Notes under the pieces: model-generated
The model's database searches: none
What the model saw: only the letters and a program-made list of their open reading frames with translations
What the model was told of the DNA's origin: nothing
Assembly: GCA_029862125.1 (NCBI GenBank)
Contig: JAOTXY010000006.1
Span: 1-64,000 of the forward strand
Source: Gammaproteobacteria bacterium
Lineage (GTDB): Bacteria > Pseudomonadota > Gammaproteobacteria > GCA-001735895
Reading direction: 5' to 3'
Length of the DNA stretch: 64,000 nucleotides
Program-made: the position numbers and the translations under genes
In this document: positions 2,982 to 56,214 of the stretch, in pieces
Position numbering within the stretch: the first letter of the stretch is position 1
How the letters are laid out: each line of letters starts with the position of its first letter

Positions 2982-3058
2982 GCGCTCGTAGCTCAGATGG
3001 ATAGAGTGTTGGCCTCCGAAGCCAAAGGTCGTGGGTTCGATTCCCGCCGAGCGCGCCA
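2982..3058 (+). tRNA. tRNA-Arg (anticodon CCG), encoded CCA
   Basis: GCGCTCG acceptor pairs CGAGCGC; anticodon arm TTGGC-CTCCGAA-GCCAA; TGGGTTCGATTCCCG T-arm; ends GCCA. Confidence 0.95.
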
Positions 3059-21454: not shown

Positions 21455-21723
21455 TAGGGCCTGTTAACACTAATCCAATGGGCTCTGTTGCGTCTGAAAA
21501 AGCGCCAATTGAGGCGCGAGAAGCGTAGTTTGGTCATTCCAAATGAGCGACGAGCAACGAAAAGTGGCGCTTTTTCAGGCGCAACCCTTCGGGCTGGGGT
21601 TATTTTTTCACCCAGCGGCGTTATCATTCGCTCATGTAGAGTGACTACATCACGCTCATTCTGCCTTGCTGGATGAAAAAATAGTCCCAGCAGAGCCCAT
21701 TGAATTAGTGTTAACAGGCCCTA
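21455..21723. mobile_element. MITE-like non-coding element, 33-bp terminal inverted repeats, two internal hairpins
   Basis: Left TIR tagggcctgttaacactaatccaatgggctctg (21455-21487) vs right cagagcccattgaattagtgttaacaggcccta (21691-21723), 32/33 complementary; inner stems 21489-21507/21565-21583 and 21593-21616/21668-21691. Confidence 0.85.
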
Positions 21724-52206: not shown

Positions 52207-53214
52207 ATGAAAGCAATTACGTTGCGCGATTTTGGCGGCCCCGAAATGATGCAATTAAGCGAGGTTGAAAAGCCCTCGCCCGATGACGGTCAGATACTGG
52301 TCAAGGTTATGAATTCGTCGGTGAATCGTCCCGATATCATCCAGCGCGAGGGCAACTACCCGCCCCCGCCCGGGGATTCTGAAATTCTTGGACTCGAGGT
52401 TGCCGGTGTCGTTGAATCAAGTGGCAATAAAACCAACCGTTTTAAACCCGGCGAGCGCGTGGTAGCGCTGGTTGGTGGCGGTGGCTATGCCGAGTTTGCG
52501 CTGGCACGTGAAGATCACGCGATGTCGATTCCGGAATCGGTCAGCTTCGAACAGGCCGCCTGTATCTGCGAAACCTATATCACTGCATATTTAAACTTGT
52601 TCATGCTCGGCGAGGTGCTGGGTAAACAGTCGGTTTTGATTCATGGCGGTGGCGGTGGCGTTGCGACGGCAGCGATTCAACTGTGCAAGGCGTTAACCCC
52701 TGAAACCGAGGTTATTGTCACGGCGTCGAGCGCAAAACTTGAACGGGTTGCGCAGCAAGGTGCCGACCATGTCATCGATTATCGTGAACAGGACTTTGCC
52801 GAGGAGATTAAAGGTATCACCGCGGGGCGCGGAGTCGATGTCATTCTCGATCACATCGGCGCAAAGTACCTGCAACCGAACATGAAATCCCTCGCGCTTG
52901 CCGGCACCTTGATGTTGATCGGCGTCATGGGGGGTATCAAGGCCGAGTTGAATCTCGCTACCATGATGGTCAAGCGACAGCGCATCATCGGTTCAGTGCT
53001 GCGCTCTCGGCCAGTCGCTGAAAAGGCTGCGATCATTAGTCAGTTCGAATCGAGCGTGATGCCACTTTTCGCAGCGGGTAAAATCGAACCCCTGGTCGAT
53101 GCCAGCTTTTCGCTCAAGGATGCCGCCGAAGCGCACAGGCTAATGGAACAGGGTGGCCATTTCGGCAAGATCATCCTGTCCAACCAGGCTAGTGGTCGAA
53201 CAACTAAGGATTGA
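52207..53214 (+). CDS. NAD(P)H quinone oxidoreductase (PIG3/Qor-like MDR)
   Basis: MKAITLRDFGGPEMMQLSEVEKPSPDDGQILVKV; GGGGGVATAAIQL; last codons (SGRTTKD*) fall inside the left TIR of the 53191 element. Confidence 0.92.
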   Translation: MKAITLRDFGGPEMMQLSEVEKPSPDDGQILVKVMNSSVNRPDIIQREGNYPPPPGDSEILGLEVAGVVESSGNKTNRFKPGERVVALVGGGGYAEFALAREDHAMSIPESVSFEQAACICETYITAYLNLFMLGEVLGKQSVLIHGGGGGVATAAIQLCKALTPETEVIVTASSAKLERVAQQGADHVIDYREQDFAEEIKGITAGRGVDVILDHIGAKYLQPNMKSLALAGTLMLIGVMGGIKAELNLATMMVKRQRIIGSVLRSRPVAEKAAIISQFESSVMPLFAAGKIEPLVDASFSLKDAAEAHRLMEQGGHFGKIILSNQASGRTTKD

Positions 53215-53471
53215 TGGTTACAGAGCGCCTCAATTGACCTGGAACAAGTGGTGCGGCATCCCGACGCAGTCCGCAGGGAATGGCTTGCCCTTTTCAAGGG
53301 CTGCAACGCGGTGCCAGGTCAACTGGGGTGCTCCCTCCGGGCGAGACGTGAAGCGGTCATTCGCTTTGTTGCGCCTTTTGGTAAGGGCTGGGCCATTGCC
53401 TGCAAGGCGCGTCGCGCGACTAACCGCTTCACGCCTCGCTGTATCCATCAATCCTTAGTTGTTCGACCACT
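53191..53471. mobile_element. MITE-like non-coding element, 33-bp terminal inverted repeats, two internal hairpins
   Basis: Left TIR agtggtcgaacaactaaggattgatggttacag (53191-53223) vs right ctgtatccatcaatccttagttgttcgaccact (53439-53471), 32/33 complementary; possible GCT direct repeat at both flanks; inner stems 53234-53242/53314-53322 and 53341-53357/53423-53439. Confidence 0.85.
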
Positions 53472-53472
53472 G

Positions 53473-56214
53473 CTAGGCCGCTTCGAGTTTTATCGCGCAG
53501 AACTTGAATTCCGGGATCTTGCCGAACGGATCGAGCGCCTCGTTGGTCAACAGGTTGGCCGCCGCCTCGTGGTAGCAGAACGGAATAAAGACCTCACCCT
53601 GCTTTAATGCCCCGTCAGGTCGCGCAAAGGCACGTATCTCGCCGCGGCGTGACCTGGCAATAATTTCAGCACCGGGCTCGACTCCTAGGCCGTCCAGATC
53701 CCGTCCGTTGACGTAGATAACCGGTACCGGTTCGATCGCATCGAGTATTGCCGCACGTCGCGTCATAGAACCGGTATGCCAATGTTCAAGCTGTCGCCCG
53801 GTAATTAGAATCAGTGGGAATTCCTCATCGGGCTGCTCGTCCGCCGGGATCGACTTTGCAGCGACCAGTTTCGCCCTGCCGTCACCGGTCGGGAAGTCGT
53901 CGATGAAGACAACACTCTGGCCCGGATCACTCTCATCGGCACAGGGGTAGGTCACCGACGACGCCTGGTTCAGTCGTTCCCAGGTAATTCCGGTAATACT
54001 CGGCATCGCCTGGCGCATTTCGTCATAGACCTCGGAAACATGGCTGTAGTTCCAGTCGAGGCCAATGCCCTTGCCGATATCACGAATAATCCATAAATCC
54101 TGACGCGCTTCACCGGGTAACGGCACCGCGGCACGCCCGAGTTGCACCCGACGATCGGTGTTCGATACCGTACCGTCTTTTTCGGCCCAGCCCGACGCCG
54201 GTAGCACGACATCGGCAAAAGCCGTGGTCTCGGTGAGGAACATATCCTGCACCACGAGGTGATCCAGTGCCGCCAGCGCTGCACGGGCATGGTTCAGATT
54301 CGGATCGGACATGGCGGGGTTTTCACCCATGATATACATTCCCTTGATCTGACCTTCGAGCACCGCGTGCATGATTTCAACCACCGTCAAACCCGGCTTG
54401 TCATCGAGTTCCGCGTTCCAGTAGTTTGCAAACCATGCGTGAGCGTCTGGATTGTCGACCCGTTGATAATCCGGGAACACCATCGGGATCAGACCCGCAT
54501 CCGATGCACCCTGAACGTTATTCTGTCCGCGCAGTGGGTGCAAACCGGTGCCGGGACGGCCAATCTGGCCGGTAATCATCGACAGCGCAATCAGGCAGCG
54601 CGAATTATCGGTGCCGTGAATATGTTGCGAAATACCCATCCCCCAGAAAATCATTGATCCTTTCGAGGTCGCAAACAGGCGTGCAACTTCGCGCAAAGTA
54701 TCGGCATCAATACCGGTCACCGCGGCCATTTTTTCAGGGCTGTAATCGGCGACATTAGCCTTCAGCGCTTCATAGTCCGTGGTGCGCTCATTGATGAAAT
54801 TATCGTCGGTCAGACCCTCTTCGATGATGACGTGCAGCATCGAGTTCAACAATGACACGTCGGTCGAAGCGTTGAATTGCAGGTGATGGGTGGCGTGACG
54901 CGAGATCTGGGTTTTACGCGGATCCAGCAGAATCAACTTCTTGCCGTCGCGAATTGCATTTTTCATAAAGGTTGCCGCGACCGGGTGATTGGTCGTCGGA
55001 TTCGAACCGATGACCATGAATACCTCGGCGTGTTTGACGTCCTCAACCTGGTTCGAAACCGCGCCGGAACCGATACCTTCCAGCAACGCAGCGACACTCG
55101 AGGCATGGCACAGGCGGGTACAGTGATCGACGTTGTTGGTGCCGAAACCGACACGCACCAGTTTCTGGAACAGGTAAGCCTCTTCGTTCGAACCCTTGGC
55201 CGAGCCGAAACCGGCGAGCCCGGAGCTGCCGAGTTCATCTTTGATCTGTTTCAATCCACCCGCGGCAAGTTGCATTGCCTCATCCCAGCTTGCTTCGCGG
55301 AACATCGTCGATGGATCGGCAGGGTCGAAGTGCTCATTAAGACCCTTGGGCACGCCTTCCCTGCGGATTAACGGCTTCAGCAGGCGCTGGGGATGGTTGA
55401 CATAGTCAAAACCGTAGCGGCCCTTAACACACAAGCGACTGAAGTTCGCAGGCCCGTCGCGCCCTTCGACACGTACGATGGTATCGTCTTTAACATGGTA
55501 AGTGAGTAAACAACCAACACCGCAGTAAGGGCATACCGAGTCAATCTTTTGATCGGCTTCCACCAGGTGGGCACCGCCGGCATTGCTGAGCGCACCGGTC
55601 GGGCAGGCGGCGACACATTCACCGCAGGCGACGCAGGTCGACTCGCCCATCGGATCACCGATATCGAATACGATTTCGGCATGATGCCCGCGACGGGCCA
55701 GACCGATGACATCGTTGACCTGGGTTTCGCGGCAGGCGCGCAGGCAGCGCGTGCACTGGATACAGGCATCGAGGTTAACCGCGATTGCCGGATGCGACAG
55801 GTCAGCCTTTGGTTGATGCCGGGGTTTGAATCTTGGTTTGCCGACTTCGAGTTTATCGGCCCAGTAGGTTAATTCATTGTCGAGCGTGTAGGACTGCTCA
55901 GGCATATCTGACAGCAACAACTCAAGTACCAGCTTTTGCGACTTCTGCGAGCGCTCATTGTCCGAGTTAACGATCATGCCCGGGGTCGGGTTTCGACAGC
56001 AGCTTGGCGCAAGCACGCGCTCGCCATCGATCTCGACCATGCAGGCGCGGCAATTACCGTCGGCGCGCAGTCCGTCGGTATAACACAGATGCGGGATCTC
56101 GGTACCGGTACGCTGTGCCGCCTGCAGGATGGTCTCGCCAGGCAAGGCCTCGACCGAATTACCGTTGAGCGTGAATTCGATGGTTTCGAAGATTGAATCG
56201 GGATTTGCCGCCAT
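53473..56214 (-). CDS. NAD-dependent formate dehydrogenase alpha subunit (molybdopterin, Cys-type)
   Basis: N-terminal 2Fe-2S/NuoG-like Cys clusters (CIQCTRCLRACRETQ, CVACGECVAACPTGAL), CPYCGVGC, NVDHCTRLCHASSVAAL active-site Cys. Confidence 0.94.
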   Translation of the reverse strand: MAANPDSIFETIEFTLNGNSVEALPGETILQAAQRTGTEIPHLCYTDGLRADGNCRACMVEIDGERVLAPSCCRNPTPGMIVNSDNERSQKSQKLVLELLLSDMPEQSYTLDNELTYWADKLEVGKPRFKPRHQPKADLSHPAIAVNLDACIQCTRCLRACRETQVNDVIGLARRGHHAEIVFDIGDPMGESTCVACGECVAACPTGALSNAGGAHLVEADQKIDSVCPYCGVGCLLTYHVKDDTIVRVEGRDGPANFSRLCVKGRYGFDYVNHPQRLLKPLIRREGVPKGLNEHFDPADPSTMFREASWDEAMQLAAGGLKQIKDELGSSGLAGFGSAKGSNEEAYLFQKLVRVGFGTNNVDHCTRLCHASSVAALLEGIGSGAVSNQVEDVKHAEVFMVIGSNPTTNHPVAATFMKNAIRDGKKLILLDPRKTQISRHATHHLQFNASTDVSLLNSMLHVIIEEGLTDDNFINERTTDYEALKANVADYSPEKMAAVTGIDADTLREVARLFATSKGSMIFWGMGISQHIHGTDNSRCLIALSMITGQIGRPGTGLHPLRGQNNVQGASDAGLIPMVFPDYQRVDNPDAHAWFANYWNAELDDKPGLTVVEIMHAVLEGQIKGMYIMGENPAMSDPNLNHARAALAALDHLVVQDMFLTETTAFADVVLPASGWAEKDGTVSNTDRRVQLGRAAVPLPGEARQDLWIIRDIGKGIGLDWNYSHVSEVYDEMRQAMPSITGITWERLNQASSVTYPCADESDPGQSVVFIDDFPTGDGRAKLVAAKSIPADEQPDEEFPLILITGRQLEHWHTGSMTRRAAILDAIEPVPVIYVNGRDLDGLGVEPGAEIIARSRRGEIRAFARPDGALKQGEVFIPFCYHEAAANLLTNEALDPFGKIPEFKFCAIKLEAA

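Follow-up and report, generated by a model that had tools for sequence, protein, structure and literature searches.

The 279-bp block between two converging genes in the window (the whole 64,000-nucleotide stretch of DNA analysed here) is best explained as a non-autonomous MITE of the IS630/Tc1-mariner type, with IS630-type ends and a core made of an inverted hairpin pair that is tolerated at gene ends; we give this reading a probability of roughly 0.85. The core, rather than being a remnant of a transposase gene, consists of a single ~97-nt hairpin module present twice in inverted orientation, with a CCCTNCGGG linker in between. The features discussed below are these:

21455–21723: second member of the superfamily, TIR family TAGGGCCTGTTAACA; hairpins at 21488–21584 (+) and 21594–21690 (−)
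52207–53214, +: quinone-oxidoreductase-like gene; its last residues and stop come from the element
53190–53191: left target TA, inside CTAG 53189–53192 (from the sequence and family flank statistics)
53191–53223, +: left terminal inverted repeat, left strand of the outer stem
53192–53470: mobile element proper (GTGG...CCAC), placed from the repeats and the family boundaries GTG...CAC flanked by TA
53223–53333, +: hairpin H1, module sense on the + strand; arms 53223–53245 and 53311–53333; match to covariance model R1 at 53260–53311 (+, E 9e-9)
53333–53341: central linker CCCTCCGGG, of C-UNCG-G type, reading C-GNA-G on the opposite strand
53341–53439, −: hairpin H2, same module sense on the − strand; arms 53341–53364 and 53416–53439; match to R1 at 53342–53438 (−, E 2e-15)
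53439–53471, −: right terminal inverted repeat, right strand of the outer stem
53471–53472: TG where the right TA is expected (from the sequence and family flank statistics)
53473–56214, −: converging formate dehydrogenase gene; its TAG stop adjoins the right end of the element

Geometry of the element

The terminal repeats, 33 nt each and 215 nt apart, are 97% complementary (32 of 33 positions), exactly as the first-pass annotation had described them. The two inner hairpins that it reported are also present, but their arms are longer than the 9 bp and 17 nt it gave: 23 nt (83%) in H1 and 24 nt (88%) in H2. The conserved loop of H1 reads AATGGC..CCCTT..CAAG..CTGCAACGC, and this hairpin is longer by an insertion of 15 nt that most relatives lack. 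A 27-mer of the terminal repeat occurs in the window just at the two repeats themselves, where shuffled sequences lead us to expect none. As a single strand the block folds far below its shuffles, with z-scores of −12.3 as DNA and −12.0 as RNA. Small open reading frames cross the element but do not indicate a gene.

Across the family, 62 of 104 copies have a TA next to each of their GTG...CAC ends. Because this is the family target and the right-hand copy reads TG here, the element is best placed at 53192–53470, and the TG is probably a decayed target duplication. The GCT repeat that had been noted at the flanks of a 281-bp block exists (53188–53190 and 53472–53474) and offers an alternative reading of the target duplication, one that departs from the family-wide TA pattern.

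The same annotation held that the window contains two MITE-like elements of unrelated sequence but the same architecture. The architecture is indeed shared, since the hairpins of the element at 21455–21723 likewise run + and then −. The sequences are related: both of its hairpins match the covariance model of the family hairpin of 53192–53470 (E 6e-10 and 9e-7). With both hairpins matched in the same arrangement, it belongs to the same superfamily with other ends. Our comparisons of IS630 ends did not turn up a parent insertion sequence for these ends.

A replacement tail and empty sites

The oxidoreductase reading frame ends in SNQASGRTTKD*, and its last codons lie inside the left repeat as had been proposed; on the other side, the formate dehydrogenase stop (53473–53475) does lie 1 bp past the right repeat. 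In relatives without an element at this junction the oxidoreductase ends in SNQD* or SNQE*. Two other species of the same genus have the junction without the element. In G020 it reads 'CAGGATTAGCTAAGC', with just ATTAGC separating both genes, and in G008 the 3′ end of the gene is 96% identical and the protein ends in SNQE*. Since the element is absent at the junction in both, with G008 reading SNQE*, SGRTTKD is a replacement tail, and the suggested comparisons with homologues and with empty sites both bear this out. The flanks of the window copy read TA/TG, and the G020 empty site is so strongly diverged that it allows no clean comparison.

Copies and spread of the family

The repeat recurs elsewhere in the same genome, in one full copy that is 88% identical and in four divergent copies that keep the geometry. 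The element is thus MITE-like in the sense first proposed: short, non-coding, bounded by terminal repeats, multi-copy and with empty sites. Matches occur in 18 of the 57 genomes searched (its own included), with many copies in G021, G003, G012 and G026. In the Thiodiazotropha genome G057 we counted 61 + 68 end repeats in pairs mostly exactly 264 bp apart, a regularity that suggests a recent burst. A second Thiodiazotropha genome (G076) lacks one element that G057 has, and the end of another element occupies that site too.

A degenerate form of the loop motif finds at least 118 stretches in named genomes; the matches listed include Thiodiazotropha, Sedimenticola, Pseudomonas, Stutzerimonas, Microbulbifer, Burkholderiales, Malonomonas and others. 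Where these listed stretches are uncut by a contig or locus end, they mostly have terminal repeats of 30–36 bp and span near 268 bp. The hairpin covariance model matches in 110 of 369 gammaproteobacterial genomes (88 of 271 genera) and, in a phylum-level sample, in families of another class as well. Which hairpin type is combined with which outer stem varies (for example in L041 and L042), so the element is modular.

Against Rfam, the window gives only a tRNA (2982–3055) above the gathering score and the relatives give nothing; a search at E ≤ 10 gives chance matches only. The element was not matched in the plasmid and phage collections, nor the loop motif in viral contigs. In the papers searched on MITEs, hairpins and IS630 we found no account of the twin-hairpin architecture, and the family is apparently undescribed so far and widespread in bacteria.

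Target site and probable IS630 parentage

Among the 62 copies with TA on both sides, C precedes in 50 and G follows in 45, and many other copies are one transition away. A TA duplicated inside CTAG is the pattern of IS630 (Tc1/mariner): in ISY100, a member of this family, the TA target is duplicated and the terminal repeats are the transposase sites (PMC2170065), and a CTAG preference of IS630 is attributed there to Tenzen and Ohtsubo (1991).

Two IS630 loci have ends resembling those of the MITEs. At L221, in Thiodiazotropha G057, an intact 362-aa transposase (NF033545, E 4e-77) lies between CTAGTGTGGCGTAACGAATAAA ends that are identical at 26 and 28 of 35 positions to the MITE ends of G057 itself, which are of another TIR family than the window's. 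At L222, in G003 of the window's own genus, an IS630-like copy has 35-bp ends, of which the right is 25/35 and the left 22/35 identical to the window's left repeat (53189–53223), a level reached by at most two in about 20,000 shuffles; its transposase reading frame is broken into pieces. The hairpin module is missing from the IS630 copies. No IS630 transposase (PF13358) turned up in the window's own genome, nor in G021 with its roughly 50 end repeats, and no transposase was seen within a few hundred bases on each side of isolated end repeats in G021, G018, G003 and G026. Other parents were considered and set aside: the PF01609 transposases of G000, G021, G003 and G057, as would suit an IS5-type parent, lack matching ends, and the IS630 loci of G029 have different ends.

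Judged from these sequence comparisons, the window element is probably an IS630-type MITE moved by an IS630-type transposase. It has the features of that class, save for the target duplication, which is probably decayed in the window copy itself. With the L222 frame in pieces and no IS630 gene found in the same genome, we infer rather than observe both the transposition of this particular copy and the cognate IS630 transposase as its mover. The outer stem of 33–35 bp would be the double-stranded end that an IS630-family transposase recognises in trans, cutting the element and pasting it into the TA within CTAG, and an intact IS630 parent in this genus would be expected to carry GTGGTCGAAC ends. 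Having landed between two converging stops, the window copy would have given the oxidoreductase its new tail.

Elements or IS630 copies also lie in or beside the CTAG that ends an earlier element, at L185 (6980–7489), L040 (1770–2274) and L222 (80–1490); these tandem arrays use one common CTAG.

Strand-specific wobble in the hairpins

The alignment of 45 elements yields 96 pairs, and in 82 of them both sides have changed in a compensatory way. The outer arms have a complementarity of 0.95 and, between different elements, an identity of only 0.41. The arms diverge across genera while the loops and the orientation of the module are strongly conserved. The loop leaves an AA unpaired within an otherwise paired stem, and the module occurs once per strand, placed sense inward in 35 clear cases with one exception: L023 (1336–1600) is the sole element with both hairpins sense on one strand, one of them apparently inverted in place. 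Short inserts, either REP-like (e.g. CCAAAGCACTCGCTGCGCTCGCGGGG) or of AAAAGTAGGCGC type, occupy hairpin loops at L045 (1698–2051), L016, L037 and L039, and at L045 both loops hold them.

In a helix that exists only as double-stranded DNA, G·T and A·C intermediates should be equally frequent on either strand, whereas a helix maintained through the folding of one strand should favour G·T on that strand. Read on one strand of 60 non-redundant elements, the outer stem has 38 G·T to 40 A·C, the 5′ hairpin (H1) 57 to 10 and the 3′ hairpin (H2) 8 to 51; counted by hairpin, the strand-specific wobble is in sense in 54 versus 7. An initial tally from the alignment of 45 sequences agreed for the outer stem and H1 and was weaker for H2. 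As the element sequences are related to one another, p-values for these counts are merely indicative. The outer stem thus behaves as double-stranded transposase sites do, and the hairpins as a folded strand. Selection for single-stranded folding seems to act on either hairpin only where that hairpin is located 5′, which suggests that on each strand the 5′ hairpin is functional. RNA is the simplest candidate for that strand, given the many copies at gene ends; taken by itself, we rate an RNA role of the hairpins at about even odds.

A plain IS630 MITE with a functionless core would account for the IS630-matching ends and for the strand-neutral wobble of the outer stem. Its inner arms could be kept complementary by cruciform repair or template switching, or its extruded hairpins could draw the ends close to each other for transposition. 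Such a core does not explain why loops and module orientation are conserved across genera despite the divergence of the arms, and a double-strand process does not predict strand-specific wobble, which makes this alternative rather unlikely in our judgement. The hairpins could also act as single-stranded DNA, for instance on the lagging-strand template, where a host or transposon protein would recognise them. The conserved loop with its unpaired AA and the single module per strand suit this proposal, as does the linker, C-GNA-G being very stable as a DNA mini-hairpin too. However, IS630-type transposition needs just double-stranded ends and a transposase (ISY100, PMC2170065), and no HUH or other single-strand enzyme is linked to the element; we consider action as single-stranded DNA improbable.

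Gene ends and the terminator question

Where long open reading frames run into an element, the TAG of the element lies in their frame in 36 of 52 cases (expectation 1/3, p 1.5e-7), an excess to be expected if CTAG at stop codons is a tolerated target. Since a CTAG frequently contains the TAG stop codon of a gene, insertions at gene ends would be tolerated. By rough ORF-based calls, the neighbours of 84 callable sites are co-directional in 52 (about 62%), divergent in 17 and convergent in 15. Convergence is therefore no rule, and a strong terminator would often do harm.

It had been suggested that the element could act as a bidirectional terminator. An intrinsic (Rho-independent) terminator is a GC-rich hairpin followed by a U-tract; the window element contains none, and the single such site found (53092–53105) lies in the gene, leaving the suggestion unproven. 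More broadly, a stationary bidirectional terminator or other structured RNA gene, kept at the junction without any transposon, would fit the position exactly between converging genes, the very stable fold and the strand-specific wobble of the hairpins. It is very hard to reconcile with relatives that have the junction without the element, copies at unrelated loci, ends that match IS630, the missing U-tract and the predominance of co-directional over convergent sites, and we think it highly unlikely.

Under the preferred reading as an IS630-type MITE, the hairpin would fold within the RNA of read-through transcripts and shield, process or halt them at gene ends, and this action would make insertions tolerable. 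With one sense hairpin coming first on each strand, it would work in either orientation. That the module represents a new structured RNA class, carried as an inverted pair on IS630-type transposons, acting at gene ends and aiding their spread at stop codons, is a tentative proposal to which we assign somewhat less than even odds.

Two further settings may be recorded here. At L018 (1441–1710 in G030:C16) and L017 (G008:C96), an insertion common to two species fills nearly the whole gap between two co-directional genes, by eye presumably pilT and pilU; its left end supplies the TAG stop codon, and its right end, CTAGGAGAAGCACC, places an AGGAG resembling a Shine-Dalgarno sequence directly ahead of the ATG. 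In the Pseudomonas-type loci L104 (4431–4694), L140 (4651–4915) and L165 (6089–6353), one element with identical flanks is an old shared insertion; it has GGGGTGTGTCATC ends and no TA flanks, and so represents another end family.

Comparison with known mobile repeats

Bacterial MITEs as reviewed in PMC2229807 are shorter than 200 bp and fold as single stem-loops, except CIR. RUP of Streptococcus pneumoniae, a MITE of IS630-Spn1, is like our family in being non-coding and multi-copy, in sharing terminal repeats with IS630 and in its TA targets. At 107 bp, with 9-bp paired ends, it lacks conserved inner hairpins (PMC2229807), whereas our family measures 264–281 bp, with a fixed linker between two ~97-nt hairpins that show covariation. 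Correia/NEMIS and ERIC/IRU, for which Neisseria and enterobacteria are the known hosts, are TA-flanked mobile repeats too, and their folding transcripts can affect neighbouring mRNA; they are single long stem-loops of 107–155 bp and 127 bp, respectively, without an inverted module pair (PMC2229807). CIR of Caulobacter and Brucella has two hairpin arms and a linker but neither terminal inverted repeats nor a proven target duplication (PMC2229807), while the arms of our family are enclosed by IS630 ends; identity with CIR was rejected on the terminal repeats present here and a loop consensus without GANTC. MITEPsy1 of Pseudomonas syringae, also a bacterial MITE, inserts after CTAG/YTAA, but is 100 bp long with 18-bp ends, a 4-bp duplication and an IS5-like parent, and no twin hairpins are described for it (PMC3189936). 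IS630 and ISY100 share the duplicated TA target and the terminal repeats that serve as transposase sites (PMC2170065); they are autonomous, encode their transposase and lack the hairpins.

A REP/REPIN-type element mobilised by a REP-associated tyrosine transposase (RAYT) would likewise show an inverted hairpin pair dispersed in intergenic sites, but 264–281 bp against units of about 20–40 nt, long terminal repeats matching IS630 ends, TA flanks and no GTAG/GGAG foot leave it next to no credit. Identity with REPIN/BIME was set aside on the same differences in unit size and ends, REP units carrying a tetranucleotide tag. Judged against the literature and libraries searched, what is new is the inverted pair of covarying hairpin modules enclosed by IS630-type ends.

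Biological meaning

The module occurs in about 30% of the sampled gammaproteobacterial species, often in many copies, and yet has no Rfam match. In this family one conserved folded core is combined with transposon ends that vary from lineage to lineage, and the wobble, being strand-specific, provides an argument, from sequence only, that the core of a MITE is selected as a folded single strand. If the module is indeed a structured RNA, one functional hairpin would meet every transcript, whichever direction it enters from. The family offers a clean and testable example of mobile elements that come to be tolerated at the ends of genes and that add new tails to proteins.
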